64,000 nucleotides of DNA from Bdellovibrio svalbardensis. GTDB taxonomy: Bacteria > Bdellovibrionota > Bdellovibrionia > Bdellovibrionales > Bdellovibrionaceae. The position numbers and the translations under genes were made by a program. The stretch is from NCBI RefSeq assembly GCF_029531655.1, contig NZ_JANRMI010000002.1, positions 310,001-374,000 on the forward strand, given 5' to 3'. Positions 3,355 to 55,580 of this stretch are shown in pieces. Position 1 is the stretch's first letter; each line of letters opens with the position of its first letter. The notes under the pieces were generated by a model. It did not search any database, had not been told where the DNA came from, and worked only from the letters and a program-made list of their open reading frames with translations.

Positions 3355-3364
3355 GCGGTTGTTG

Positions 3365-6300
3365 ATGAAGCTAACTCTGGTCACTTATATTTTGACGTTA
3401 GGTGTATCCAATGCCTGGGCCAATCCTGTCGGCGTGCACTTAAGTGGACATATCAGTAACAGTGCAACAGGTACTTCTTTAAATGCGACCAACGTAGACT
3501 TTGTCGTTAAGGTCTTGAGCCCCGGAGGCTGTCTTCTTTATTCCGAAAATCACTTAGGCAAAGATCTTTCACAGACCTCGGGCAACTTCGATATCGACAT
3601 CGGGACAGGTTCGACGGCTTACAACGTCTATGACGGAGTGACTCCGCAAAGTACTGCGTCCGTGGTAAAAGTTTTTGATAAGGCGGCACCTGCGCTGTCT
3701 GGCTTAACTAATGTAGATACCGGGGGATGTCCTGGTGGTGTGTACACTCCTGCTGCGAATGATTTGCGCCAAGTGCGTATTGAGTTTGATGCCCATGATG
3801 GCCTTGGTGTGCAGATCATTCAGCCATATCATAAGGTAACGAATATTCCATTTGCTTTGCTTGCAGAAAAAGCCGGCGATTCTGAAAGTCTTCAAGGTAA
3901 AGTGGCTAGTGATTTCGTTTTGAATTCGGATCTTGCAACTGTAGTTCCTGAAAATGAAACCGATCCTTCTGTGAAGGCGTTCGCAAAAGCGAATTTGCCT
4001 TCATGTAATGCGGGCGAGGTCTTGAAAGCCTCAGGTGGAGTTCTGACTTGCGTGAGTGCTGGTGGTTCAGTTGCTGTGGCAACGACGACTTCGACGGGTA
4101 TGGTGCAAGTGGGCAGTGGTCTTTCGGTCGACGGTGTTGGTTTATTGACGACAGATAATGCAGTTATCAAGGCTGGTTTGGGGCTGGCGATCCCGGATGT
4201 TTCAGGATTGCAGACAGCTTTGAATGACCGTGTTTTGTATTCGCAAATGCCGTCCTGTACTGCTGGGCAAACTTGGACTTTCGTTTCCCCGGTGGGTGGG
4301 TTTGTTTGTACATCGACATCGATCACAGCCTCGCAGGTGAGTGACTTTAGTACCGCAGTGGATGCAAGGATTGCTGCCGATACAACCAAGTTGCCTTTAA
4401 GCGGTGGCACCATGAGTGGTGCGATTGATATGAATGGTCAGAATTTGACCTTAACGGGTTACATCACGATGAACCCTTCGAAGTCATTGCATTTATCAAA
4501 CAATGCTGTGGATCCAGTGGGATTAACTCCTGCCGATAAAGGTAAAGTTTGGTTCAACTCGACAAGTAACGAGATTAAATACTGGGACGGCACGCAGGCT
4601 AAAGTCATAGGGACTGCAGGGGCTGGTCTTCAATCAATGAATGGCTTGAGTGACAACACTCAGACTTTTGCAACGGGCTCGAGCGGATCTGATTTCAATA
4701 TCAATTCAGCTTCTGGAGTTCACACATTCAATATCCCAAGTGCTTCTGCATCGAATCGCGGCCTTTTGACAGCAGCGGACTATACAGCCTTTTCGAATAA
4801 ACTTTCTGCAGTGAGTGGCAGTGCTTTGCCTGCCGCGCAAATTTGGGTGGGTAATGCCGGCGGGAATGCCGCAGCTGTTTCGCTCAGTGGTGATGTGACG
4901 ATTGATAATGCAGGTGTTGCGACTTTGAAAAGCACGGGCACTGCGGGTACTTACTATAAAGTAACGACAGATGCCCAAGGTCGTGTCTCAAGTGGTGTTG
5001 CGACACTGGCTGTTTCAGATGTGACAAGCCTACAAACGAGTTTAGATGCGAAAGTCCCGTACTCGCAGCTTTCAACTTGTACTGATAATCAAACTTTGAA
5101 ATTCATTTCCCCAGTGGGTGGTTTTTCTTGCGTGAACATCGCGATCACCGCTTCGCAGGTAACTGACTTCAGTACAGCAGTGGATGCGCGAATTGCTGCA
5201 GACACTACAAAATTGCCTGTAGCTGGCGGAACGATGACGGGCACCTTGAATATGGGTGGCCAAGATATCACGAATGCGGGCAATGTTTCATTGGCTTCTA
5301 ATAAGAATCTGCAACTGGGTTCTTATGCGGCCGATCCATCCACAGCAGGCTGGGGAGCAACAGAAAAAGGTCGTACTTGGTTTAATACCACCAGTAATCA
5401 GATTAAGTACTGGGATGGATCTTCAGTTCAAGCCTTGGGAATTTCGGGAGCCGGCTTAACTTCATTCAATGGCCAAGTTGGTTCGACTCAAACTTTGGCC
5501 GTTCCAGGTACATCAGGTGCTGCTCCAAACTGGTCGTCATCAGGCAATGTTCATACGTTGAATATTCCATTGGCTTCTTCGGCGGGGTCGACGGCGGGTC
5601 TTTTAAGTAAAGCTGATTACGATTCGTTTGTGGCGAAGCAGCCTGCTGGTAACTACGTCACGGCTTTGACAGGTGATGTGACTGCGGCGGGGCCTGGCTC
5701 TGCGGCAGCGACAATTGCCGCGAATGCAATCACAACAGGCAAAATCTTAGACGGCACTATTTTAGGTGCTGATTTGAATTTCACGGGCGTGAACACCGCA
5801 ACTTCTGGAATTGCGGTTGTTGATTCCACGGGCAAGTTTAATAACTTTGCCTGCTCCACCTCAGGCCACATTGCAACGTGGACGGCGACAGGTTGGACAT
5901 GTCAAGCTCCCGCAACAAATGGAACTGTGACGAATGTTGCGACGGGTACTGGATTAACCGGTGGTCCAATTACAGGAACTGGTACGATTTCTTTGGCTAG
6001 TACTGCGGTGACTGCGGCTTCTTATGGTTCTGCAACTCAAGTGGGAACATTTACGGTGGATGCTCAAGGTCGTTTGACTGCTGCATCGAATGTAACAGTA
6101 ACTCCATCTTGGTCTTCGATCACGGGAACTCCGACAACACTCAGTGGTTACGGAATCACGGATGGCGTGCAAAATAGTGGTGGCACTCCAAGTATGCAAA
6201 CGGGAACGTTGGCAGCTCGTCCTGCTTTTGGAACTGCGGGCAGAATCTATATCGCTTCTGACACGAATACGATCTATCGCGATACGGGTTCTACATGGGT

Positions 6301-9300
6301 TGCAATTGGTGACGGTACCGGAGCTGGTGGCACGGTCAGTAACGTTTCCAGTTCGACTGCTGATATCAGTGTGGCAACAGGAACGACAACACCGGTGTTG
6401 ACTTTGAACTCAGGGACAACTGGTGGCGGTAGTGATGCGAATAAGATCGCGAAACTTGATGCGAGTGGTTTGCTGGCTCCAGCGATGATTCCGTCCATTG
6501 ATGCTGCGAAAATTTCGTCTGGAACATTGCCAGTCGCTCGTGGTGGTACAAATTCAGCAGCAGCATTGACAAATAATAAAGTCATGGTTTCAAGTGGTGG
6601 CGCGATTGTCGAGGCAGCGGCGATAACTGCAAATAAAGCTTTGATTTCGGATGCTAATGGTATTCCAACTCACTCGACAGTGACGAATACAGAACTTGGC
6701 TACTTATCAGGTGTCACTTCAGCAGTTCAAACTCAGTTGAATGCGAAGTCTTCATCTACTGGTTGGTCGAACTACAGCGTCATTGCAACGAACGGTTCGG
6801 GCACCATGACTGCGGTTACAGGTTCTGCAGTTGGAAGTATTTTGCAGTATTCTGCAACTGGTCCGGTGTATTCAACAGCAACTTATCCAAGTTCAACAAC
6901 AGCAAATCAGTTGTTGTTCTCTTCAGCGAACAACGTTGTGGGTGGATTAACTTCTGCCAATGACTCAGTTCTTTTAACGAATGGTACTGGTGTGCCGGCT
7001 TGGTCGGCAAAGACAGCTGATGCATTCACGCAGTACGCTTTGTTGGCAGGTCGTGCTGGTGGTCAGTCAATTAATGGTGGAACAGCGGCAAGTAATAATT
7101 TGACGTTAGATTCTACAGCGAATGCAACTAAGGGTTATGTTCTTATCAACCCAACAGGCGGCAATGTTGGTGTTGGAACTGCGACTCCAGCGATCAAACT
7201 CGATGTTGCGGGTGCGGTTCGTGTTGGTACGGATGCAACAGCCTGTGCGGCAGGTGTTGCAGGCGCGATCCGTTATAACGGTGGTAATGTCGAGTATTGT
7301 AATGGAACTGCGTGGACTGCTTTTGCGGCGAGTGGTGCTGGGATTACTTCGTTTAATGGTATGACGGGTAATACGCAAACGTTGGCGGTACCAGGCACAA
7401 CTGGGAATGCTCCTAATTGGTCATCGGCTTCGAATATTCACACTTTGAATATTCCGATGGCGAATACTGGCTCGGTAACAGCGGGTCTTATTAGTAAAAC
7501 TGAATATGACAACTTCAATACAAAATTGGGAACTGGATCAACATTCTCTGGTGACGTGTCTGGAACTTACAACGCGATGTCAGTGGATAGAATTAAAGGC
7601 AAAGCGGTTAGTGCAACTGCGCCAACTGATACTCAGTTCTTAGTCTATAACAATGGTGCGACTCAGTATGCTCCCGTGAGCATGTCTGGCGACGCGACAA
7701 TGGCGAATACTGGTGCTGTGACTTTGAAAAACACTGGTACTGCTGGAACATACACTAAAGTCACAACAGACGCCCAAGGTCGTGTGACTTCAGGAACTAC
7801 TTTAGTAGCTGCCGACATTCCAGGATTAGATTGGACTAAGATTACTTCCGGTATACCAACTACACTAAGTGGTCATGGAATCACTGATGGCGTACAAAAC
7901 AATGGTGGCACTCCAAGTATGCAAACAGGAACGTTTGCGGCTCGTCCAGCATTTGGAACTGCGGGCAGAATCTATATCGCTTCTGATACGAACACAATCT
8001 ATCGCGATACAGGTGCAGCTTGGGTTGCGATCGGTGATGGTGCCGGTGCAGGCACTGTGACTTCGATCACAGCTGGAACTGGCTTAACGGGTGGTACGAT
8101 CACCTCAGCTGGAACTATTGGCTTAGGCACAGAGTTGACGGGATTGAATGGACTTTCAACAACTGGTTTCGTTAAGCGTACTGGCGCTGGTACATATACC
8201 ACCGCGGCAGCAAGTTTAACGGCTGATGTTTCAGGTGTTTTGCCGGTTGCAAACGGTGGTACAAATTCTTCGACAGCTTTGACTAATAACAAAGTGATGG
8301 TTTCAAGTGGTGGTGCAATTGTTGAGGCCACTGCAATTACTGCAAACAGAGCGTTGATTTCGGATGCGAGTGGCATTCCAACTCACTCTGCGGTGACGAA
8401 TACTGAGCTTGGCTATCTGTCAGGTGTTACTTCTGCAGTTCAAACTCAGCTGAATGCAAAATCATCTTCAACTGGCTGGTCAAATTATAGTGTTATTGCA
8501 ACGAATGGTTCCGGGACGATGACAGCAGTCACTGGCTCTGTAAACGGTTCGATCTTGCAATATTCTGCGACGGGTCCGGTTTATTCTACGGCTTCTTATC
8601 CAGGTACAACGACCGCAAATCAATTGTTGTTCTCTTCAGCTAATAACGTGGTTGGTGGTTTGACATCGGCGAATGACTCAGTTCTTTTAACGAATGGTAC
8701 TGGTGTGCCTGCTTGGGCTGCAAAAACAGCAGATACTTTCACTCAATACGCGCTATTGGCAGGTCGTGCTGGTGGGCAGGTGTTGAATGGTGGAACAGCG
8801 GCAAGCAATAACTTGACGTTGGATTCGACAAACAATGCTACTAAGGGTTATGTTCTGCTAAATCCAACTGGCGGTAATGTTGGTATCGGCACTGCGACTC
8901 CTGCGATCAAACTCGATGTGGCCGGTGCGGTTCGTGTCGGTACTGATGCCACAGCCTGCGCGGCGGGTGTTGCGGGTGCGATTCGATATAACGGCGGCAA
9001 CGTTGAGTATTGTAATGGAACCGCTTGGACGGCCTTTGCAGCAAGCGGAGCGGGAATCACTTCATTGAATGGATTGATAGCTGGTACACAAACATTTGCG
9101 ATTGGTACAACTGGAAACTCGCCAGCATTCACCTCCGCAACAAGCACTCATACGTTGAATATTCCAATGGCATCGGCATCGGGAACGGTAACGGCGGGTT
9201 TGTTAAGTAATACTGATTGGACGACATTCAACAATAAACTTGGAACGGCTTCGACATTCTCTGGTGACGTGTCTGGGACATCCAGCACGATGTCAGTGGA

Positions 9301-12300
9301 TAAAATCAAAGGTAAAGCGGTTAGTGCTACTGCGCCTACTGACACTCAGTTCCTCGTCTATAACAACGGTGCCACTCAATATGCTCCGGTGAGTATGTCG
9401 GGTGATGCAACGATGGCAAACACCGGTGCGGTGACTTTGAAAAACACCGGCACCGCTGGAACATACACGAAAGTTACTACAGATGCTCAAGGTCGTGTGA
9501 CTTCTGGTACCACTCTGGCAGCTGCGGATATTCCAGGACTGGATTGGACTAAGATTACTTCTGGTAAGCCGACAACAATTGCGGGCTATGGAATCACAGA
9601 TGCAATTTCTAATCTGGGTGGTACGCCAAGCGTGCAAACGGGGCTATTAGCTTCACGTCCTGCATTTGGCATCGCCGGCAGATTGTATATCGCTTCAGAT
9701 AACAACACGATCTATCGCGATACGGGTGCAGCTTGGGTTGCGATTGGTGATGGTGCTGGTACAGGTACTGTGACTTCGATCACTGCAGGAACTGGTTTAA
9801 CTGGCGGTACAATCACTGCGACAGGGACCATTGGTTTAGGTACAGAGTTGACTGGATTGAATGGTCTTGCGACGACGGGGTTTGTAAAAAGAACCGGCGC
9901 GGGCGCTTATTCAGCAGTGACAAGCGTGGGCTTGTCATCCGACGTGACGGGAACGTTGCCGGTAGCAAATGGTGGTACTAATTCTTCGACGGCATTAACG
10001 AATAATCAGCTGATGTATTCAGGCGCTGGTGCGATTAAAGAGCTAGGCGCGATGACTGACGGTCAAATCGTTGTCGGTAAAAACGCCAGTGCTCCGCAAA
10101 TCGTTTCTATGAGCGGTGATGTGACTGTTTCGAATACCGGCGTAACGACTGTTGGAAAAGTCAATGGCACCACAGTTACAGGTGTGGGTTTAGCAACAAA
10201 TAATATTTTGCAGAACACAGGATCAGCGATAACTGCGAATAGCGTTTTAGTCAGTAACGGCACGGCCACAGGTGTAACCGCATTGACCAGCCCAGCAAGT
10301 GGTGTGTTGACATCTTCAGGGACAGTTCCCTCTTGGTCGACTTCTTTGCCGGCAACGATGGGTGGTACGGGACAGACTAGCTTTGCGGTTGGTGATTTGT
10401 TGTATGCTTCAACAACGACTGCGATGTCTCGCTTGCCTGCTACAACATCCGGTTATGTTTTAACTAGTAACGGTGCGGGTACTGCACCAAGTTGGCAGGC
10501 AGTTTCTGGTGTTATCGCAGGATTGACTGCGGGCCGAGTGACTTTGTCTACGGCCGCTAATTCAGTAGGTGATAGTCCGAACTTTACATTCAACTCATCA
10601 TCTGGCGCGATGGCGATCGGTGGTACTACACCAGCCTTTACATCTGCAGGTGCATTGACTGTGCAGGGCGCTTCAGGTTCTGCAACAACTGTGGGTAACT
10701 CGGGTACGACTTCTAGCTTGGTATTGCAATCTGGTTCTGGTGGTGTTTCTTTAGCGGGCAATACTTCGATTTCGGGTGCAAATACCTTCGCAACGGGTAC
10801 TGGTGCGGTGAGCTTGAATGGTGCGACGACGGTTGCTGCCAATCAAAACTTAACGATGGCTTCTGGTACGGGTGTTCATACACAGACCTTTACTGGGACA
10901 ACAACGGATGCGGCCTCGATCATCGCGAACTCATTGACGACAGGAACAGCGCTGAATTTGACTTCTTCAAGTGCAAGTTTAAATTCAACGGATGGTTTGT
11001 TGTATGTGGCGAACACGGGTGCTTCAACCTCTGGAATGGTTGCCAGAATTCAGTCGAACTCTACCGCAGGGACAGGTTTGACGGTATTAGCAAGCGGCAA
11101 CGTGGGTGTTGGCACAGTAGCTCCGAGTGCGGCTCTTGAAGTTGCGGGCCAAGTTAAAATCACTGGCGGTACTCCGGGCGCAGGCAAAGTGTTGACTTCA
11201 GATGCGGCGGGTTTGGCGACCTGGGCAACTCCTGGTGGTGGCGGAGCTCTCTCTGCGATCACGGCGGCAACCGCAACAAATACCATCGACAACTTAAACT
11301 TCGGTCAAATCTGGAACTGGTCAACGGCGACGACGCAAAGTCCGCTGAGTATTTCCGCGAATGCTTTAACAACCGGCAGCTTGTTAAACTTGACGACTTC
11401 AAATGCATCTGTGAATTCTACGAATGGTTTGTTGTATATTGCGAATACAAGTGCAGCGACGACCGGTACAGTTGCACGGATTCAGTCGAGCTCTGCCAGT
11501 GGCTCTGGTTTAACAGTTCTTGCGAATGGCAACGTCGGTATCGGGGTTGCCGCACCAGGAAAGAACTTGCATGTCTTGGGCTCAAGTCCAACGATTAAGT
11601 TAGAGGCAAGTAGTGGTAGTGCATATTTGGATCTTTCAGCTGGTGTAACGAGCAACAGTTTTACTCGCTATATGTCTCAAAACCAAAGTCGTTGGGAGGT
11701 GGGAAAAGAGCCAACCGCGGAAACCGGTTCTGATGCGGGAAGCGATTTCGTGATCAACAGGATTAGCGATGCAGGCGGTAGCCTTGGGACAGCGCTATTT
11801 ATTAAGCGATTAAATGGTAATATCGGAATCGGTACGACAGCACCAGGTGCAGCCTTAGATGTTAAAGGCGCAATTCGTATGTCCGGCTCAACTTCGGGCT
11901 ACACGGGATTCCAACCATCATCCGCTGCTGGTTCAACAGTTTGGACGTTGCCAAATATTGATGGCACGAACGGTCAGGTCCTGCGAACAAATGGATCTGG
12001 TGGGCTTTCTTGGCTGACGCCAGTTACCAGCTCTACGGGCTTTGTCAACGGTGGAAATAGCTTTGGTAGTATCGCAAGGATTGGAACTAACGATGCCTAT
12101 GATTTTGCACTGGCAGCTTCTGGCGTAACAACGATGACGTTGATCGCTTCTTCCGGTAACGTCGCAATTGGAACAACCAACGCCTCAGAAAAGCTTCATG
12201 TCCGTGGCGCCAATGGAGCTAATATTTCGGCCGACAATTTTGGGGAACAATTCACTGAGTTTTTGTTTAAAAATAATGATATCGCGAAAGCCAATATAAT

Positions 12301-15300
12301 ATGGGACAACACGAATACAACATTGTCCGTCAATAACAATCAAGCTGGACCTCTGAAGTTGGGAACTAGCGGTACAGAGCGTATGAGAATTGATTCTGCA
12401 GGCAATGTCGGCATCGGCGCAACGGCTCCTGTTGATACTCTTTCTATCGGCACAGCACCTGTTGCCAGTGCGACTCGTGCGCAAGTGAACTTGTCGAACA
12501 CAGCTCTTTCTGCTGGTTCTGCGAATGGAACTTACATCGGCGCTAACCCTGCCGCTTATACTGGTGACTTTATTAACTTCCAAGTTGGTAACGCTACTAG
12601 GTTTAAAGTCGATGCCACAGGTAAGGTAACTGGAGATGGTTCTGGTTTGACAGGCGTTACTGCCACAGCAGCACTTTCAGGAGTTACTGCCGCCACTGCC
12701 ACCAATACGATCGACAACTTACTCAATGCGCAGATTTGGAACTGGTCGACGGCGACGACTCAAAGTCCAATGACTATGACAGCAAATGGCCTCACGACTG
12801 GAAGTATTTTATCACTGACCAGTTCGAGCACCGGTAATACTGGCTCAAATGGTTTGCTATATGTTGCTAATACAGCCGCAACCTCAACAGGCACAATTGC
12901 GAGATTTCAGGCTAACTCTACAGCAAACTCAGGTCTTACTCTTTCTGCGAACGGCGACTTAGGCCTTGGAGCAAGTACGAGTATGATAGGAGACTTGGGT
13001 GGATTTGCATATACCCCAAATCTGAATACAATTCTTCATATTAACTCTTCAGGTAATGAAAATGCAGTTCTAATTGTAGACTCAAAATCCGGCACCGGAT
13101 CTCCCCAAATACTTATGCGTGCAGCGAGTGGATCTAACAATCGCATATTTAAAAGTTCTTATTCTGGAAATCTTGTGAATTACAGCTTTGTTGGCGAAAC
13201 CACTGGTACGACCAATCCAGACAATGTCCTTGTAATGTCTAATACAGGGAGTGTCGGCGTTGGTATCATTCCAACAAATTTCTTCTCAGTGTCACCACCT
13301 TACTACCAAACCGGTTATGCATCACAATCTGGAAATACTATCACTGGGACGTCTGGAGCATCTTGGACATCGGCTATGATTGGCTCGCAATTTGTTTTCG
13401 CCAATGGAACCGACGCAGGCACAATTACCGCGGTACCCAGCGGCACGTCACTCACTGTTTCCACATCGCAAACTGTTGGATCTCAAACCTATAGAATTCA
13501 TCAAGTTGGTATACAGCTCACGACAGCCGGAAATGTCGGTATCGGAACAACAACGCCTTCTTCAATTCTTGATGTTAACGGAGCTGAAACTATGCGCGGC
13601 ATGGCGGCTCCGGCAGTGTCTCCGGCGGGGCAAGGTCGCCTCTACTTTGATTCTGCAGCGAATAAGTTCAAAGTTTCTCAAAATGGCGGGGCTTATGTTG
13701 ATTTAGTCAGCGCTGGCGGTGGAGCTTTATCTGGTATCACCGCCGCGACAGCAGGAAATACGATCGACAACTTAAACTTCGGTCAAATCTGGAACTGGTC
13801 AACGGCGACGACTCAGACATTGATGTCAATGAATTCAAATGCGCTAACCACCGGCAGTATGGTGAGTCTGGCCAGCTCTAGTGCCACATTGAATTCCAGC
13901 AATGGTTTATTCTATGTTGCCAACACTGGGTCATCTACCAGTGGAAAAGTAGCAAGAATTCAAGCGAACGCAACCTCAACAACGGGTTTCACAGTCCTTG
14001 CTAACGGCAATGTTGGTGTTAATACCGATAACCCATCGAATCTCTTCCATGTTGCTGGAGGAACAGCTTCCAGCGGGAATGGTAAAGCTGTACGTATAGA
14101 AGGTCAAACTGGTGCCGCTGGCGTAACTCTGGGCGGTGATATTTTGTTGATGCCTGGAGCAAATGGTGCAGGAGGTGGTGCGAATCTTTCGGGTAGAGTG
14201 GGTATTGGAGCATCTCCGACTGCAATGTTGGATGTCTATAGAGCGTGGACTGATATTTCCAACCCTATTGCTCGCTTCACTGATTCTGGCGGCGCGGAGC
14301 TAAAGATTATTGCAAACAGTTCTACATTGATGAGTATAGCTGCAGGTACTGGAGACAGTGTGCGGTTGATTAATAATAGCGAAGTCTCTCCGAATGAAAT
14401 TGTAAATCTCGACTTAGCGACGCATTCACTGCAGTTTACTACCAATGGTAGTGAACGTATGCGTGTAGATAGTAGCGGTAACGTTGGCATTGGCACGACA
14501 AGTCCGAATACTCCGCTACATGTTGTTAACCCCGGAGCTGCTTTTACGACTTATTATGGAATTAAAGGTGAGTTGACTTCGACGACAGGCGGTGATGACA
14601 ACTCCGCTGCGGTTTACGGAAAAACTGCTCATTCCTCTGGTTATGGTGTGGCTGGTGTAAGAGGAGAAGCCACAGCAGGATCGAATACCGTTGGTGTTTC
14701 AGGCGTTGCGATTGCCGGGAAAGGTGTCTCTGGTACAGCGACCACAGGTTATGGTGGCTTCTTCAGCTCTGCTTCTGGCTATGCACTTATTACCTCAGGC
14801 GGAAATGTTGGATTTGGTACTTTTGGGCCCAAATCTAAACTTGACGTTAATGGCGGCATTTCTGTAGGTACCTATGCAGGCACTAATGCCGCCCCTGCAA
14901 ATGGAGTAATAGTTAGTGGCAATGTCGGGATAGGAACAACTGCTCCTGGTTACAACTTGCACGTTGTCGGCACTGCAGGCTTGAGTACAGGTACGGCGTG
15001 GACTTTGGCTTCAGATGCCCGCCTTAAAGATGTTCATGGGGATTACGAATACGGACTGAATGAGATTTTAAAACTTCACACCGTGCGTTTTAACTATAAA
15101 AAAGAAAACGCTTTGAATATTCCATCAGACAAAGCGATGACTGGTTTTATCGCGCAGGAAGTGCAGAAGGTGATTCCTGATGCTGTTCATACTCGCGATG
15201 ATGGATATCTTGAGTTGAATGCGGATCCAATTCACTGGGCGGTGGTGAATGCTGTGAAAGAGTTTTATCAAAAATGGTTTCAAGATTCTCAGCAGATTCA

Positions 15301-15439
15301 TAGAGGTATTGCTTCTGTACAGGCACAGGTTGAAAATAAGGCGGATCAATCTGAAGTGATGCAGTTAAAAACGGAAAACGCGCAGATGAAGGCGTGGATT
15401 TGCAAGCAGGATCCGGTGGCTCCATTCTGTAAAAAATAA
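3365..15439 (+). CDS. Giant mosaic fibre protein with C-terminal peptidase S74 chaperone domain
   Basis: About 4,024 residues, secreted, resembling phage tail fibres and the mosaic adhesive trimer proteins described in Bdellovibrio. The start is taken as the ATG at 3365 because AGGCGG lies 6 nt before it; two in-frame TTG codons just upstream are too close to that site. A signal peptide ends at NAWA. The body is Gly/Ser/Thr/Ala-rich with many repeats. Roughly a dozen motifs of the type GNVGIGTTxP occur. A near-identical 571-residue module is duplicated in tandem (nt about 6,578-8,290 and 8,291-10,000). A TIDNLxxxQIWNWSTATTQ module occurs three times (nt about 11,280, 12,710 and 13,760). The end carries an S74 intramolecular chaperone with the S3883-D3884-A-R-L-K self-cleavage motif, then a C-terminal coiled coil (about residues 3960-4024). 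The family trimerises and the S74 part is cut off after folding. A prey- or surface-adhesive role is inferred. Confidence 0.88.
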   Translation: MKLTLVTYILTLGVSNAWANPVGVHLSGHISNSATGTSLNATNVDFVVKVLSPGGCLLYSENHLGKDLSQTSGNFDIDIGTGSTAYNVYDGVTPQSTASVVKVFDKAAPALSGLTNVDTGGCPGGVYTPAANDLRQVRIEFDAHDGLGVQIIQPYHKVTNIPFALLAEKAGDSESLQGKVASDFVLNSDLATVVPENETDPSVKAFAKANLPSCNAGEVLKASGGVLTCVSAGGSVAVATTTSTGMVQVGSGLSVDGVGLLTTDNAVIKAGLGLAIPDVSGLQTALNDRVLYSQMPSCTAGQTWTFVSPVGGFVCTSTSITASQVSDFSTAVDARIAADTTKLPLSGGTMSGAIDMNGQNLTLTGYITMNPSKSLHLSNNAVDPVGLTPADKGKVWFNSTSNEIKYWDGTQAKVIGTAGAGLQSMNGLSDNTQTFATGSSGSDFNINSASGVHTFNIPSASASNRGLLTAADYTAFSNKLSAVSGSALPAAQIWVGNAGGNAAAVSLSGDVTIDNAGVATLKSTGTAGTYYKVTTDAQGRVSSGVATLAVSDVTSLQTSLDAKVPYSQLSTCTDNQTLKFISPVGGFSCVNIAITASQVTDFSTAVDARIAADTTKLPVAGGTMTGTLNMGGQDITNAGNVSLASNKNLQLGSYAADPSTAGWGATEKGRTWFNTTSNQIKYWDGSSVQALGISGAGLTSFNGQVGSTQTLAVPGTSGAAPNWSSSGNVHTLNIPLASSAGSTAGLLSKADYDSFVAKQPAGNYVTALTGDVTAAGPGSAAATIAANAITTGKILDGTILGADLNFTGVNTATSGIAVVDSTGKFNNFACSTSGHIATWTATGWTCQAPATNGTVTNVATGTGLTGGPITGTGTISLASTAVTAASYGSATQVGTFTVDAQGRLTAASNVTVTPSWSSITGTPTTLSGYGITDGVQNSGGTPSMQTGTLAARPAFGTAGRIYIASDTNTIYRDTGSTWVAIGDGTGAGGTVSNVSSSTADISVATGTTTPVLTLNSGTTGGGSDANKIAKLDASGLLAPAMIPSIDAAKISSGTLPVARGGTNSAAALTNNKVMVSSGGAIVEAAAITANKALISDANGIPTHSTVTNTELGYLSGVTSAVQTQLNAKSSSTGWSNYSVIATNGSGTMTAVTGSAVGSILQYSATGPVYSTATYPSSTTANQLLFSSANNVVGGLTSANDSVLLTNGTGVPAWSAKTADAFTQYALLAGRAGGQSINGGTAASNNLTLDSTANATKGYVLINPTGGNVGVGTATPAIKLDVAGAVRVGTDATACAAGVAGAIRYNGGNVEYCNGTAWTAFAASGAGITSFNGMTGNTQTLAVPGTTGNAPNWSSASNIHTLNIPMANTGSVTAGLISKTEYDNFNTKLGTGSTFSGDVSGTYNAMSVDRIKGKAVSATAPTDTQFLVYNNGATQYAPVSMSGDATMANTGAVTLKNTGTAGTYTKVTTDAQGRVTSGTTLVAADIPGLDWTKITSGIPTTLSGHGITDGVQNNGGTPSMQTGTFAARPAFGTAGRIYIASDTNTIYRDTGAAWVAIGDGAGAGTVTSITAGTGLTGGTITSAGTIGLGTELTGLNGLSTTGFVKRTGAGTYTTAAASLTADVSGVLPVANGGTNSSTALTNNKVMVSSGGAIVEATAITANRALISDASGIPTHSAVTNTELGYLSGVTSAVQTQLNAKSSSTGWSNYSVIATNGSGTMTAVTGSVNGSILQYSATGPVYSTASYPGTTTANQLLFSSANNVVGGLTSANDSVLLTNGTGVPAWAAKTADTFTQYALLAGRAGGQVLNGGTAASNNLTLDSTNNATKGYVLLNPTGGNVGIGTATPAIKLDVAGAVRVGTDATACAAGVAGAIRYNGGNVEYCNGTAWTAFAASGAGITSLNGLIAGTQTFAIGTTGNSPAFTSATSTHTLNIPMASASGTVTAGLLSNTDWTTFNNKLGTASTFSGDVSGTSSTMSVDKIKGKAVSATAPTDTQFLVYNNGATQYAPVSMSGDATMANTGAVTLKNTGTAGTYTKVTTDAQGRVTSGTTLAAADIPGLDWTKITSGKPTTIAGYGITDAISNLGGTPSVQTGLLASRPAFGIAGRLYIASDNNTIYRDTGAAWVAIGDGAGTGTVTSITAGTGLTGGTITATGTIGLGTELTGLNGLATTGFVKRTGAGAYSAVTSVGLSSDVTGTLPVANGGTNSSTALTNNQLMYSGAGAIKELGAMTDGQIVVGKNASAPQIVSMSGDVTVSNTGVTTVGKVNGTTVTGVGLATNNILQNTGSAITANSVLVSNGTATGVTALTSPASGVLTSSGTVPSWSTSLPATMGGTGQTSFAVGDLLYASTTTAMSRLPATTSGYVLTSNGAGTAPSWQAVSGVIAGLTAGRVTLSTAANSVGDSPNFTFNSSSGAMAIGGTTPAFTSAGALTVQGASGSATTVGNSGTTSSLVLQSGSGGVSLAGNTSISGANTFATGTGAVSLNGATTVAANQNLTMASGTGVHTQTFTGTTTDAASIIANSLTTGTALNLTSSSASLNSTDGLLYVANTGASTSGMVARIQSNSTAGTGLTVLASGNVGVGTVAPSAALEVAGQVKITGGTPGAGKVLTSDAAGLATWATPGGGGALSAITAATATNTIDNLNFGQIWNWSTATTQSPLSISANALTTGSLLNLTTSNASVNSTNGLLYIANTSAATTGTVARIQSSSASGSGLTVLANGNVGIGVAAPGKNLHVLGSSPTIKLEASSGSAYLDLSAGVTSNSFTRYMSQNQSRWEVGKEPTAETGSDAGSDFVINRISDAGGSLGTALFIKRLNGNIGIGTTAPGAALDVKGAIRMSGSTSGYTGFQPSSAAGSTVWTLPNIDGTNGQVLRTNGSGGLSWLTPVTSSTGFVNGGNSFGSIARIGTNDAYDFALAASGVTTMTLIASSGNVAIGTTNASEKLHVRGANGANISADNFGEQFTEFLFKNNDIAKANIIWDNTNTTLSVNNNQAGPLKLGTSGTERMRIDSAGNVGIGATAPVDTLSIGTAPVASATRAQVNLSNTALSAGSANGTYIGANPAAYTGDFINFQVGNATRFKVDATGKVTGDGSGLTGVTATAALSGVTAATATNTIDNLLNAQIWNWSTATTQSPMTMTANGLTTGSILSLTSSSTGNTGSNGLLYVANTAATSTGTIARFQANSTANSGLTLSANGDLGLGASTSMIGDLGGFAYTPNLNTILHINSSGNENAVLIVDSKSGTGSPQILMRAASGSNNRIFKSSYSGNLVNYSFVGETTGTTNPDNVLVMSNTGSVGVGIIPTNFFSVSPPYYQTGYASQSGNTITGTSGASWTSAMIGSQFVFANGTDAGTITAVPSGTSLTVSTSQTVGSQTYRIHQVGIQLTTAGNVGIGTTTPSSILDVNGAETMRGMAAPAVSPAGQGRLYFDSAANKFKVSQNGGAYVDLVSAGGGALSGITAATAGNTIDNLNFGQIWNWSTATTQTLMSMNSNALTTGSMVSLASSSATLNSSNGLFYVANTGSSTSGKVARIQANATSTTGFTVLANGNVGVNTDNPSNLFHVAGGTASSGNGKAVRIEGQTGAAGVTLGGDILLMPGANGAGGGANLSGRVGIGASPTAMLDVYRAWTDISNPIARFTDSGGAELKIIANSSTLMSIAAGTGDSVRLINNSEVSPNEIVNLDLATHSLQFTTNGSERMRVDSSGNVGIGTTSPNTPLHVVNPGAAFTTYYGIKGELTSTTGGDDNSAAVYGKTAHSSGYGVAGVRGEATAGSNTVGVSGVAIAGKGVSGTATTGYGGFFSSASGYALITSGGNVGFGTFGPKSKLDVNGGISVGTYAGTNAAPANGVIVSGNVGIGTTAPGYNLHVVGTAGLSTGTAWTLASDARLKDVHGDYEYGLNEILKLHTVRFNYKKENALNIPSDKAMTGFIAQEVQKVIPDAVHTRDDGYLELNADPIHWAVVNAVKEFYQKWFQDSQQIHRGIASVQAQVENKADQSEVMQLKTENAQMKAWICKQDPVAPFCKK
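6538..9990 (+). repeat. Tandem 571-codon coding repeat inside the giant fibre gene
   Basis: Two consecutive copies, period 1,713 nt (the KVMVSSGG segment starts at 6578 and 8291). The encoded residues are nearly identical over long blocks, but many third codon positions differ. Part of the module (GITDGVQNSGGTPSMQTG, nt about 6,150) occurs a third time upstream. Confidence 0.85.
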
Positions 15440-22381: not shown

Positions 22382-22660
22382 ATGAAACAAAAAAATATGC
22401 TAGCAGATTTCTTGAAACAAAAACGTGTAGCGGCAGGCCTTTCACAAAGAGATGTTGCAGATAAATTGGGTTATTCAACTCCGCAGTTTATTTCTAATTG
22501 GGAACGTGGTGTGTCTCACCCACCAATCAACGCTTTGAAACGTTTGGGCGAACTTTATAAAGTATCTGCAGAAGATCTTTTTGAAGTGACACTCAGTGCG
22601 ACTATCCAAGAGGTGACTCAGGATTTACGCAGAAAATTTGCTACAAGCAAAGCACGCTAA
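22382..22660 (+). CDS. XRE-family DNA-binding regulator
   Basis: A 92-residue protein that is almost entirely one HTH_3/XRE domain: LADFLKQKRVAAGLSQRDVADKLG, then YSTPQFISNWERGVSHPP (recognition helix region) and LKRLGELYKVSAEDLFE. The short C-terminal tail is basic. It likely binds DNA as a dimer and regulates nearby genes or itself. AGGTGG lies 7 nt before the ATG. It has its own terminator. Neighbours are the divergent thioesterase operon and a lineage-specific protein gene downstream. Confidence 0.88.
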   Translation: MKQKNMLADFLKQKRVAAGLSQRDVADKLGYSTPQFISNWERGVSHPPINALKRLGELYKVSAEDLFEVTLSATIQEVTQDLRRKFATSKAR

Positions 22661-22686
22661 GATTATTTCTTTAAAATGAATAGGTA

Positions 22687-22711
22687 AAAAGCCCCTAAAT
22701 TGGGGCTTTTT
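22687..22711 (+). terminator. Intrinsic terminator of the XRE gene
   Basis: Stem AAAAGCCCC / GGGGCTTTT with a 6-nt loop and trailing T's, 27 bp after the stop. Confidence 0.9.
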
Positions 22712-22769
22712 GCTTTTTTATAGCTTAAACCTGAGATAAACTCGTTATTATTTAGGTGAAATTATAGCC

Positions 22770-23408
22770 ATGCACGTTCTCGCCAAGCAGTTTAAAATTC
22801 TAAGTGAAGAGCTGAGCGACCTGATTGAAAAAGAAGGTTGGGTGGTCCGCCCATATCAAATGGACTCTTTGCCGTTTTTTAGTGCGCTTTCGGATGAGAT
22901 GAAACAATCGGTTTGTGAAGAGTTGAAGGAATACTTGGGCATCTGTCGACAGACGCAGGCGGCAGGGCATAGCATCTCGGATGCTCGGTTTTTGGTTAAT
23001 GAGGCTCGTGAGCATCACGGGTTCTACTTTCATGAAGATGTAAATAAGTTGATCGAGAAGGGTGATGTGGTTGAATTTTACACTTCAAATCACCTGCAGA
23101 TTTTTAGAACCTTCAACTACTTTGAATACACCAGTTACACGATCGAAGATATCTACTGCCGCCCTTGGTTTTCTTTGTATGAGCGAGATGATGAAGTGAC
23201 AAAAAGAATTCTTGAAATGGCAGTTCCCGTATTCGCAGGAAAACAACTGACGCCATTATTGCTCGACGTGGGTGTCCACCTGATCACAGAGCGGTACTCT
23301 TTAGAAAGACTGCAACTACGCAACAAAGCCAACTGGATCGCCCCTCTATTTAAGGACGAAGACCAAATCGGCTATGTTAATGTTTTGAGAGTGGAACCGC
23401 TTACATAG
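22770..23408 (+). CDS. Lineage-specific protein, family A (paralogue of the 53300 gene)
   Basis: A 212-residue cytoplasmic protein with no domain I recognise and no signal peptide. It is clearly paralogous to the 226-residue protein at 53300-53980. Shared landmarks are the N-terminal VRPY/VRPF segment followed by LPFF/LPHF, the region around LxIFRTFNYFEYTSYTIEDIY (here) versus LYRNLRYYDFCSYSIEELY (there), a W-rich turn (PWFSL / EWWNL), then an RDxEVT/RDAEIT helix. Conserved aromatics and charges suggest a folded functional domain. It follows the XRE gene after a terminator, so it is probably transcribed alone. The last codons and stop lie inside a duplicated hairpin (23396-23441). Confidence 0.7.
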   Translation: MHVLAKQFKILSEELSDLIEKEGWVVRPYQMDSLPFFSALSDEMKQSVCEELKEYLGICRQTQAAGHSISDARFLVNEAREHHGFYFHEDVNKLIEKGDVVEFYTSNHLQIFRTFNYFEYTSYTIEDIYCRPWFSLYERDDEVTKRILEMAVPVFAGKQLTPLLLDVGVHLITERYSLERLQLRNKANWIAPLFKDEDQIGYVNVLRVEPLT

Positions 23409-53299: not shown

Positions 53300-53980
53300 G
53301 TGGATTTTAATGTTATGCAGATCTCGAACTCAATGTTGTCAATGCAACTTATTCATGAAGAGTTCAAACGTTCGGCGCTGAAACTATCTGCAATCTGCAG
53401 CACTCAAAATATCCGCGTGCGTCCTTTCGTCGAAGGTTTGCCACACTTCGGGAAGCTTTCTTCTGACCGACAATTGGACATCATCAAAAACATCAAATTT
53501 TATCTGGAGCTTTGTGAAGAGCAAATGTCCGAGGGTCAGAGTCTGCGCGACAACTTGTCGTTTACGTGGAAAGCTTTGCGCAAGCTGGGCTACTCGCCTA
53601 AGTCTGATTTGTTTTCTTTGATTAAGGACGATGACATCATTGAGATCTATAACAATGAAAGCCGTCAGCTTTATCGCAACCTTCGTTACTATGATTTCTG
53701 TTCTTACTCCATTGAAGAGCTCTACTCCTTGGAGTGGTGGAATTTGTTTTCTCGTGATGCAGAAATCACCATGAAACTTATTGAGGAAAGCGGAAAGATC
53801 TTCAACGGTGAGGTTGACACACATATTTTCTCTGAAACCGGAGAGCATATGGTGAAAGAGCTTGCGTCTGTTGATAGACTTTCAAACAGATACCGTGCAA
53901 AACTGCTCAGCCCCCTTATGTTGAATAAGAAGGCTGAGGCCATGATGGTTGTTATTGAAGCTAATTCTGTTATGAATTAG
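53300..53980 (+). CDS. Lineage-specific protein, family B (paralogue of the 22770 gene)
   Basis: A 226-residue cytoplasmic protein starting at GTG 53300 (AAGGA about 8 nt upstream; ATG 53315 is possible). No recognised domain. It is clearly paralogous to the 212-residue protein at 22770-23408 across the middle and C-terminal parts: LYRNLRYYDFCSYSIEELY against IFRTFNYFEYTSYTIEDIY, EWWNLFSRDAEIT against PWFSLYERDDEVT, and a C-terminal RLSNRYRAKLLSPLM against RLQLRNKANWIAPLF. It is monocistronic and convergent with the heme-oxygenase-like gene. Confidence 0.7.
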   Translation: MDFNVMQISNSMLSMQLIHEEFKRSALKLSAICSTQNIRVRPFVEGLPHFGKLSSDRQLDIIKNIKFYLELCEEQMSEGQSLRDNLSFTWKALRKLGYSPKSDLFSLIKDDDIIEIYNNESRQLYRNLRYYDFCSYSIEELYSLEWWNLFSRDAEITMKLIEESGKIFNGEVDTHIFSETGEHMVKELASVDRLSNRYRAKLLSPLMLNKKAEAMMVVIEANSVMN

Positions 53981-54008: not shown

Positions 54009-54656
54009 TTATCCAACCGCTCTGTATTTTGTTGCCGTGGCTTTACTGCGGCAATACTCCAGCATCTTGATGTAATTGTCGCATCCTTGAGCCAAAGACT
54101 GCATGATATAAAGTTCATCGGGACCGGTGATGCCGGCGACCATTTTCATCGCTTCCTCAACATGACCTTCGTCTTCCTCCGCGTGGACGCGAATAAAGTG
54201 ACTGGCTTTGGGGCCAAACTCTTTCGTGGTTTTTTCGCAAATGAAGTGACCTGCATTTTTAGCGATGACTTCCAGGCAAAGAATATAACCAAAGAATGCC
54301 AGCGGACTTTTAAACTGAATCCAATAGTACTGCGGTTGATACAATGATTGAGTCGCAGCGGCTTCTGGGAAGTCGTTGAAATTAAGATTTAAGTTTTTGA
54401 GGTCCATAATGGCCAGCTTGTCGTGGCCTTTCTCTTCCGCAGCATGTGGGATGAAACGGTTGTGATAAGCCGTTTGTTCTTCGTTACAATGGGCGGCGGC
54501 CAGGGTGAGGAGGCGAGTCGAATGCTTTACGAAATGGCCAGTCTGTGCGAGCCATTCAGCATAGAAGCCCTTGTCATGCCAAGGCGCTTCGAGAAGTGCT
54601 TTAGTGGGTTTGTCGCAAAGCTCAAGAATAGATTCAGCGGTCAACATTTTAGACAT
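54009..54656 (-). CDS. Heme-oxygenase-like iron-containing redox enzyme
   Basis: About 215 residues of the TENA/heme-oxygenase-like all-helical fold used by iron-containing redox enzymes such as the CADD and HDO groups. Candidate metal ligands fit that fold: HAAEEKGHDKLAIMDL in the first half, LCLEVIAKNAGHFI in the middle, and HAEEDEGHVEEAMKM in the C-terminal third (repeated E/D/H triplets). Such enzymes oxidise fatty acids or aminobenzoate-type substrates with a di-iron site. Start ATG 54656 is chosen with AAAGGA upstream; TTG 54671 is an alternative. It follows the GNAT-like gene in the same direction with about a 21-bp gap, suggesting a two-step pathway. Confidence 0.75.
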   Translation of the reverse strand: MSKMLTAESILELCDKPTKALLEAPWHDKGFYAEWLAQTGHFVKHSTRLLTLAAAHCNEEQTAYHNRFIPHAAEEKGHDKLAIMDLKNLNLNFNDFPEAAATQSLYQPQYYWIQFKSPLAFFGYILCLEVIAKNAGHFICEKTTKEFGPKASHFIRVHAEEDEGHVEEAMKMVAGITGPDELYIMQSLAQGCDNYIKMLEYCRSKATATKYRAVG

Positions 54657-54677
54657 AGTAGGTCCTTTCAAGAACGT

Positions 54678-55355
54678 TTAAGCAGCTTTTTTGTTAAGTT
54701 TAGAGTTTTCAACCGGAGCCAGGAATGACTCATGATTTTGCCAAAGTGAATCGACCCAGCGTTGGATCTCTTCGCTATAAAATTTCCGTACAGTCTGTTT
54801 TGGCAAAAAGACGACGGTGCATTCATAGTTCATTTTTTTAACTGGTTCCTGGATGTTGTATCCACCCATACGAATGCAGGTTTGATCCATCTTAATATCC
54901 ACGCGGGGAGTACCAATGATTCCACTCGCCGGAGTCTCATCCAAACACTTCAGGGCGCAGCCCATCAGCACGTCCACCCAACGTATATTGGCAGAACTCT
55001 TACGCCACTCAGGAGTGATGTTGGTATATTCGAGGGAATAGAGCAGAGACTTGTTTTCCGCAATGAGTTTGGCGCGAGTCTCTGGCGTGATATCTTCCAT
55101 ATAGTGATGGTCTTGGCAGCAATCCAACTTCAAATCAAACAGAGAGTAATAGTGAGAGCCGATGATATTGTCGCCTTGCATGAGTACGCCAATCATGTCG
55201 TAACGAAAAAAATCATCAAGATCGAGTTCGCCACCAGCAGAAGTGAGAACTTGATTGAAGGTGTTTTTCCAAGACTTGTAGGCAAGATTCAGAAGTCGTC
55301 GTGATTCTTCATTGGTGTAATGCGGACTCAGCAAAACGTAGCGAACATTGAACAT
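54678..55355 (-). CDS. GNAT-like acyltransferase-fold protein, partner of the heme-oxygenase-like enzyme
   Basis: About 225 residues from ATG 55355, chosen because GGGGG lies about 7 nt before it; ATG 55361 is only 1 nt from that site. A GNAT-like layout is suggested by the strand-loop GDNIIGSHYYSLFD, the strand SLEYTNITPEWR, then the helix WVDVLMGCALKCLDE, followed by GIIGTPRVDIKMDQTCIRMGG. No conserved acetyl-CoA Q/RxxGxG/A loop is clear, so this assignment is tentative. It overlaps no gene but precedes the heme-oxygenase-like gene closely. An acyl-amide or other acylated small molecule as a product is possible but speculative. Confidence 0.5.
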   Translation of the reverse strand: MFNVRYVLLSPHYTNEESRRLLNLAYKSWKNTFNQVLTSAGGELDLDDFFRYDMIGVLMQGDNIIGSHYYSLFDLKLDCCQDHHYMEDITPETRAKLIAENKSLLYSLEYTNITPEWRKSSANIRWVDVLMGCALKCLDETPASGIIGTPRVDIKMDQTCIRMGGYNIQEPVKKMNYECTVVFLPKQTVRKFYSEEIQRWVDSLWQNHESFLAPVENSKLNKKAA

Positions 55356-55533
55356 GAACATTCCCCCTTTGTTGTTCGATGGTCAATTATCGGCGGATTT
55401 AAACTAAACAAAAGTTTTCTATTTTTAAGATAGTCAAAATGGGATGTTGCTAAGATTGCAAGTGAGCAATGGGCAATTTGAAACGGAAATGAGAATAAAA
55501 GCGTATAAACAATATAAGGTATATGAAGGTTTT

Positions 55534-55563
55534 GCAGAGGCTCGCCGATAAGGCCGCCTCTGC
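55534..55563. terminator. Hairpin 3' of the lytic transglycosylase gene
   Basis: GCAGAGGC (55534-55541) and GCCTCTGC (55556-55563) form an 8-bp stem with a T run only on the plus strand. It is 18 bp past the minus-strand transglycosylase stop, so it may be non-canonical in that direction. Confidence 0.5.
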
Positions 55564-55580
55564 ATTTTTGATCTTAGGAA

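Follow-up and report, generated by a model that had tools for sequence, protein, structure and literature searches.

A candidate acyl-signal pathway in Bdellovibrionota that pairs a LuxI-fold acyltransferase-like protein with a heme-oxygenase-like oxidase, putative sensors and a shared C-terminal tail

Introduction

Two groups of described enzymes lie closest to the locus reported here. The first comprises the heme-oxygenase-like dimetal oxidases (HDOs), most of which use a metal-ligand set of three His and three Asp/Glu residues (3H/3C); in five substrate-bound HDO structures, the substrate itself ligates Fe1, as stated in excerpts of PMC13108848. For the mangotoxin acetylenase MboA, excerpts of PMC13185094 give the ligands of the crystallised enzyme as E86/H89/E143/H172/D176/H181, and describe a peptide arginine substrate (a feature of MboA, not of the oxidase considered below) that ligates Fe1 via its carboxylate. 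The second group comprises the LuxI-type acyl-homoserine lactone (AHL) synthases, in whose systems the synthase gene adjoins a sensor gene, as well as the FeeM N-acyl amino acid synthases (PF21926). LuxI-like GNATs also make products that are not signals, i.e., the N-acyl amino acids of FeeM. Among predatory bacteria, LuxI/LuxR genes have been found in Micavibrio, and neither this predator nor Bdellovibrio has been observed in group predation in the laboratory, according to the excerpted text of PMC3189940.

Herein, we analyse a locus of Bdellovibrio svalbardensis in which a protein with the predicted fold of LuxI and FeeM (A) is encoded beside an HDO (B); no paper on this pair was found in the open-licence PMC literature.

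Results

A tight operon with a convergent third gene

The window, i.e., the whole stretch of 64,000 nucleotides that was analysed (contig NZ_JANRMI010000002.1, positions 310,001 to 374,000), had been described in an earlier note as holding two minus-strand genes about 21 bp apart. Both were confirmed as open reading frames, at 54009-54656 and 54678-55355, and A and B form a tight operon. The features treated below are:

54678..55355, minus strand: A, LuxI/FeeM-fold (GNAT) acyltransferase-like protein by AlphaFold model with Foldseek and VIA comparison; 225 aa, without a Pfam family (possible alternative start: ATG at 55361)
54681..54692, minus strand: C-terminal KKAA of A, the shared tag, in a predicted disordered tail (tail comparison and model)
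54657..54677, minus strand: A-B gap of 21 bp, with a ribosome-binding-like GAAAGGA in the sequence preceding the B start
54009..54656, minus strand: B, predicted heme-oxygenase-like di-iron oxidase (PF14518) by Pfam and six conserved ligands; 215 aa from the ATG (a TTG at 54671 is also possible as start)
54012..54029, minus strand: C-terminus of B, KYRAVG, which in this genome is the shared tag in weaker form (tail comparison)
53300..53980, plus strand: R, conserved third gene convergent with B, proposed sensor; N-terminal helices and a predicted PAS-fold C-terminal half (about 109-226)
22382..23408, plus strand: XRE-type regulator at 22382-22660, then an R paralogue at 22770-23408; the second R-XRE unit of the window, distant from A and B

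The surroundings of A and B are a housekeeping stretch, kept in 10 of the 61 compared loci, with upstream genes of cell-wall/cell-shape type and, beyond, thioredoxin-like and DprA-like genes (names read from the ORFs). A sigma-70 consensus scan upstream of A gave no promoter-like site, the numbers being in line with those of shuffles. The sole inverted repeat upstream of A (55533-55564) was set aside: it lies directly behind the preceding gene and looks like the terminator of that gene. Elsewhere in the window, 3359-15439 is occupied by one repetitive ORF of 4026 aa with the look of a fibre or adhesin.

The predicted fold of A

No Pfam or NCBIfam family scored over its cut-off for A. Across 35 members of the A family, Pfam returned chance-level matches only (one being Acetyltransf_1 at E 0.051), with no match to the LuxI family PF00765 at E <= 0.1. 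A likewise had no match to PF21926, and profile-profile comparison with three FeeM-like proteins reached a probability of just 6.5%. PDB searches by sequence and by whole profile gave nothing credible, only chance matches.

The AlphaFold2 model of A, built from 10 input sequences, is confident (pLDDT 89.6, pTM 0.86). Foldseek placed RpaI (6wn0, E 4.8e-7) and BjaI in the top rows, followed in lower rows by MesI, LasI, FeeM and EsaI, among other GNATs. By VIA-align, RpaI scored Z 17.0 over 193 residues, BjaI 16.2, MesI 15.0 and LasI 14.2, with FeeM (2G0B), of the same fold group, at 14.7; Z was at least 8 for 892 of the 999 chains compared, the 50 listed being acyltransferases of the GNAT fold. 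As for the GNAT motif A, (R/Q)xxGx(G/A), R118 is kept in at least 90% and the A3 consensus is V-x-P-x-x-R-K-x-x-x-G, which would be a degenerate form of the motif.

The earlier note had seen an acyltransferase fold in the 54678 protein and had named structure prediction as its check; on the model obtained, the GNAT fold is firm. Beyond this general assignment, A likely resembles autoinducer synthases specifically, lying closer to AHL synthases than to other GNATs, though not exclusively. LuxI-type enzymes (RpaI, BjaI, MesI, LasI, EsaI) offer the closest solved folds, and their systems share with the A locus the adjacency of synthase and sensor genes. Unlike them, A has no PF00765 match (identity is about 10%), an HDO as partner and a shared C-terminal tag, and the putative sensor at its locus is R, a predicted PAS protein without a helix-turn-helix (HTH), instead of LuxR.

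It is improbable, in our estimation, that A is instead an ordinary small-molecule or protein acetyltransferase with a GNAT core and no acyl-lipid chemistry, with an unrelated amino acid as the substrate of B. GCN5, RimI and arylalkylamine N-acetyltransferases do score Z 14-15, within about 3 units of the AHL synthases, and A is without a sequence match to LuxI or FeeM. However, these ordinary GNATs align over 140-170 residues, whereas AHL synthases lead both the Foldseek and the VIA rows and align over 186-193 residues. Moreover, PF14518 HDOs also lie beside FeeM-type GNATs outside the phylum (loci L139 and L152, below), and the desaturases and FAD oxidases that replace B elsewhere fit a lipidic product. 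An autoinducer-synthase fold for A would add to this fold group an enzyme family that sequence searches miss.

B and its metal ligands

B matches PF14518, "Iron-containing redox enzyme," at 37.1 bits against a cut-off of 28.9, and a B profile of 28 relatives matched 3DDE (E 8e-19) and MboA (9YPI, E 4e-7) in the PDB. Twelve columns are invariant across 28 diverse homologues, including E75, H78, E129, H158, D162 and H165; B thus carries the 3H/3C set in the order E..H, E, H..D..H, the same order as in MboA, to which its sequence is related by profile. Given these matches and the six invariant ligands, the 54009 protein is, by homology, a heme-oxygenase-like dimetal oxidase with the ligands that had been expected of it; a di-iron cofactor and O2-dependent oxidation are its predicted activity. 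MboA, 3DDE and UndA have the ligand pattern and a sequence relation in common with B, and differ from it in that the partner of B is a LuxI-fold GNAT. Since the substrate ligates Fe1 in the five substrate-bound HDO structures, and by a carboxylate in MboA, a carboxylate-bearing product of A would be favoured as the substrate of B.

Linkage of A and B across the phylum

The survey covered 290 genomes of one phylum, taken as Bdellovibrionota on the strength of named relatives (Bdellovibrio, Bacteriovoracaceae, Oligoflexia and others). Single-sequence searches located A in 85 of these genomes and B in 117; by profile search, A was present in 104 genomes, about a third. B lies within 2 kb of 104 of the 130 A places in these genomes. 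Ranked by score, the 50 best B places all have A within 2 kb, as do 103 of the best 110 and 105 of the full 145. The two genes stand on one strand as A-B (88 pairs) or B-A (12), or on opposite strands (4), and identity among A proteins drops to about 16-20%. That linkage survives both reordering and identities of about 16-30% points to joint function of A and B. The pair from which the earlier note surmised a small-molecule pathway, and for which it proposed a survey across genomes, is hence not rare outside this strain, and its conservation is far stronger than had been claimed.

Several loci are related and not independent (L068-L070, L116/L120 and L110/L111), and the ORF caller missed A and B in L071, where a long antisense ORF took their place, and A in L105. 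Distance-matrix correlations (A-B r 0.67-0.70, A-R 0.69, B-R 0.70) were not counted as evidence because shared species history alone yields such values. PADLOC, run on P0001, P0002, R and two relatives, returned no defence family, and a defence role was therefore dropped. In L128 (5177-5884) and L133 (5223-5945), a very different protein of 235-240 aa stands in the place of A before B; it scores neither as A nor as any Pfam family over cut-off, and is also tailed (EQKVA / VVRAA).

Other oxidases in the place of B

A is found without B in 26 places, of which 14 were examined. Six of these adjoin a fatty-acid desaturase (PF00487; L108, L109, L112, L114 and, twice, L115), and two adjoin an FAD_binding_4 oxidase (L110, L111). 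In L113 (genome G181, 3565-5877), A and an FAD_binding_4 oxidase are joined in one 770-aa protein, a natural fusion that ties A to oxidative chemistry. The other five showed no replacement and are mostly lone A paralogues (e.g., G000:C3:603928). Where B is missing, a desaturase or FAD-linked oxidase thus often takes over, a pattern not in the earlier note. Both B and a desaturase are present in three loci (L078, L087, L121), and further tailed neighbours include a methyltransferase (L091) and an FAD-dependent oxidoreductase (L114).

A lone A paralogue without B or R occupies 5920-6642 of L103 (the G000:C3:603928 region), with another in L104; in both this genome and G145 its neighbour is a zinc alcohol dehydrogenase-like gene, and its tail (L103/L104) is not of the strict tag type.

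HDO-GNAT pairs beyond the phylum

In a Hyphomicrobiaceae metagenome-assembled genome (L139), the gene after that of an HDO with the C-terminus RRRAA encodes a true FeeM, which scores over the PF21926 cut-off and terminates in LAMAA; the B profile matched 19 of 240 genomes of the class of Hyphomicrobiaceae, the L139 genome included. A GNAT with a cNMP-binding domain adjoins an HDO in L152 and L153; a Pfam scan of L152 names both FeeM and cNMP_binding. There, at 386-2181, an alphaproteobacterial HDO stands beside a FeeM-type GNAT fused to the cyclic-nucleotide-binding domain.

PF14518 genes also occur on plasmids, and three of the four regions opened held a T_hemolysin/AMP-binding/SDR cluster. 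On plasmids of Citrobacter, Vibrio and Variovorax (L178, L179, L180), the order is thermostable hemolysin, AMP-binding protein, iron-containing redox enzyme, SDR and a hypothetical (TPR) protein. On a Deefgea plasmid (L181, 3299-6197), a FeeM-like protein whose weak match stays below the cut-off (E 0.0039) stands in a row with a PF14518-type HDO, DUF3419 and an AdoMet decarboxylase, possibly another acyl/aminopropyl pathway. The T_hemolysin cluster is compact and has a PF14518 HDO, as does the A-B locus, and its T_hemolysin protein is, like A, of GNAT size and presumably GNAT-like by its fold clan; this "hemolysin" might act as an acyltransferase and not as a toxin. The cluster differs in its AMP ligase and SDR and in an inconsistent tail tag, and no member of the A or R family was seen in it. 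An HDO with a LuxI-like GNAT is a recurring pairing, of which the form with R and tails is distinct.

R and the sensor side

The R family was found in 46 of the 61 loci examined. An XRE gene is present in 26 loci and is the direct neighbour of 20 of 54 R genes. The B. svalbardensis genome has four R genes in all, and the second XRE-R unit of the window stands without A or B; an R paralogue at L147 adjoins a protein with an endosialidase-chaperone domain. None of the R, XRE or histidine-kinase neighbours appeared in the earlier note.

The model of R (pLDDT 92.1) has helices at the N-terminus; for its C-terminal half, PAS domains head the match lists, and a PAS fold is predicted at modest match strength (Foldseek PAS rows prob 1.00, E 1.2e-3; VIA Z 6-7.7). 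Among 31 R members, Pfam found no PAS at E <= 0.1, no HTH family, and the autoinducer-binding domain PF03472 in one alone, at E 0.012, too weak to use. R is without a DNA-binding part, and a whole-profile PDB sequence search gave chance matches only. Judged by PF03472 and HTH, R would not be a receptor of LuxR type.

A histidine kinase-cluster protein of at least 300 aa lies directly beside the pair in 8 of 14 R-less loci versus 3 of 45 R-bearing ones (Fisher p 1.6e-4 over 59 loci with A, a value that flatters, as some loci are close relatives). Five of the eight kinases (L089, L094, L116, L120, L122) are related in their N-terminal regions, which contain 4-6 hydrophobic segments and match no Pfam family. 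This alternation of R and kinase suggests that cue reading is part of the A-B module.

The same enzymes might alternatively make a structural or competitive metabolite (a modified lipid, a surfactant, or an antibiotic against rivals or prey), with R, XRE and the kinases only regulating the operon while sensing oxygen, redox or envelope state; we consider this rather unlikely. PAS domains often sense O2 or redox, as the PAS protein here could, B would need O2, and FeeM exemplifies LuxI-like GNATs with non-signal products. Known HDOs serve mostly natural-product assembly, according to excerpts of PMC13108848, and MboA, the nearest characterised one, works in mangotoxin (excerpts of PMC13185094). 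Yet the cluster is small, with two enzymes and no conserved transporter or scaffold enzyme found by neighbour clustering, and it has a conserved sensor, in whose absence another sensor tends to stand in, which fits the reading of a signal better.

A C-terminal tail shared by the enzymes and absent from R

A, B and the replacements of B carry a tail of about the form [K/R][K/R][A/V]A, never seen on R; this shared tag was absent from the earlier note. Under the pattern [K/R].?[AVSTG][AVG], used for counts over all loci, the tail is present on 38/61 A, 29/48 B, 9/10 desaturases and 2/2 FAD oxidases, versus 0/54 R and 7/529 other ORFs of the same loci. When each group is reduced to a single representative, at below 50% identity, the strict tail occurs on 28/46 A, 19/34 B, 8/9 desaturases and 1/1 FAD oxidase, versus 0/44 R and 6/360 other ORFs of at least 100 aa (p 2e-25 for A, 2e-18 for B). 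A and B agree in their commonest letters, with K at the fourth- and third-last positions and A at the last two. The loose tag pattern is absent from 16 of the 56 A proteins that have a partner, several of those 16 ending KIA, KVS or KTG. In the window, A ends KKAA and B ends RAVG rather than AA, making the B tail of this genome a weaker case of the tag.

According to excerpts of PMC7652416, ClpXP recognises ssrA (...LAA) chiefly by its terminal Ala-Ala, and other proteins with Ala-Ala ends are also ClpXP substrates; the MuA C-terminus is given as RRKKAI in the excerpted text of PMC8138137. Like these ClpX C-degrons, the tails of A and B end in small residues, and that of A is unstructured by prediction, with residues 216-225 of the model below pLDDT 50 (about 35 at the end), and the tmRNA tag of the host, GNDYALAA, ends ALAA. 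From this resemblance, the disorder and the tmRNA tag, we propose by analogy that the tails may be a ClpXP-type degron. A real contender, if one we would bet against, is that the tail serves for docking or sorting instead of degradation and gathers the pathway enzymes at a common partner (e.g., a PDZ-like protein or the membrane). Its presence on A, B, desaturases and FAD oxidases and never on R (0/54) is as a pathway-assembly tag would have it, and basic residues before two small ones could touch a membrane or partner; the likeness to ssrA and MuA (PMC7652416, PMC8138137, as excerpted) and the ALAA end of the genome's own tmRNA tag argue for the degron instead. The tag also offers a case, open to test, in which enzymes of a putative single pathway share a terminal tag without being homologous.

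Discussion

We hold, at somewhat better than even likelihood, that this locus encodes a degron-tagged acyl-signal pathway in which a LuxI-fold acyltransferase acts together with oxidative tailoring and exchangeable sensors. A and B would be two successive enzymes of a small-molecule pathway, with A moving an acyl chain from acyl-CoA or acyl-ACP onto an amine, most likely an amino acid, and thereby yielding an N-acyl amino acid-like product. B would then oxidise this product with its di-iron site and O2 (by desaturation, decarboxylation or hydroxylation), probably binding the product carboxylate at Fe1 in the manner of other HDOs; in other lineages, this tailoring would fall to a fatty-acid desaturase or an FAD-linked oxidase. 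The resulting compound would act as a diffusible signal, to be read by R, a predicted PAS-fold protein working with an XRE repressor or activator, or, in R-less lineages, by the neighbouring histidine kinase. The [K/R]x[A/V]A tails would mark the biosynthetic enzymes, and not the sensor, for ClpXP-type turnover, such that output could be quickly shut off.

More tentatively, and with doubt outweighing conviction, the module may represent an undescribed class of chemical communication across Bdellovibrionota. Such a class would combine (i) a Pfam-invisible LuxI-fold synthase, (ii) interchangeable oxidases (HDO, desaturase or FAD oxidase), (iii) interchangeable sensors (PAS plus XRE, or a polytopic histidine kinase), and (iv) a common C-terminal degron letting ClpXP clear the whole pathway at once, perhaps at a switch in the predatory life cycle.

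Ultimately, HDOs are found here repeatedly paired with enzymes of the autoinducer-synthase fold, as predicted for A, and Bdellovibrio-type predators probably make and sense a small, undescribed acylated molecule. The synthase-oxidase-sensor module, with A in 104 of 290 genomes, provides a concrete candidate for predator communication and a route to its chemistry.
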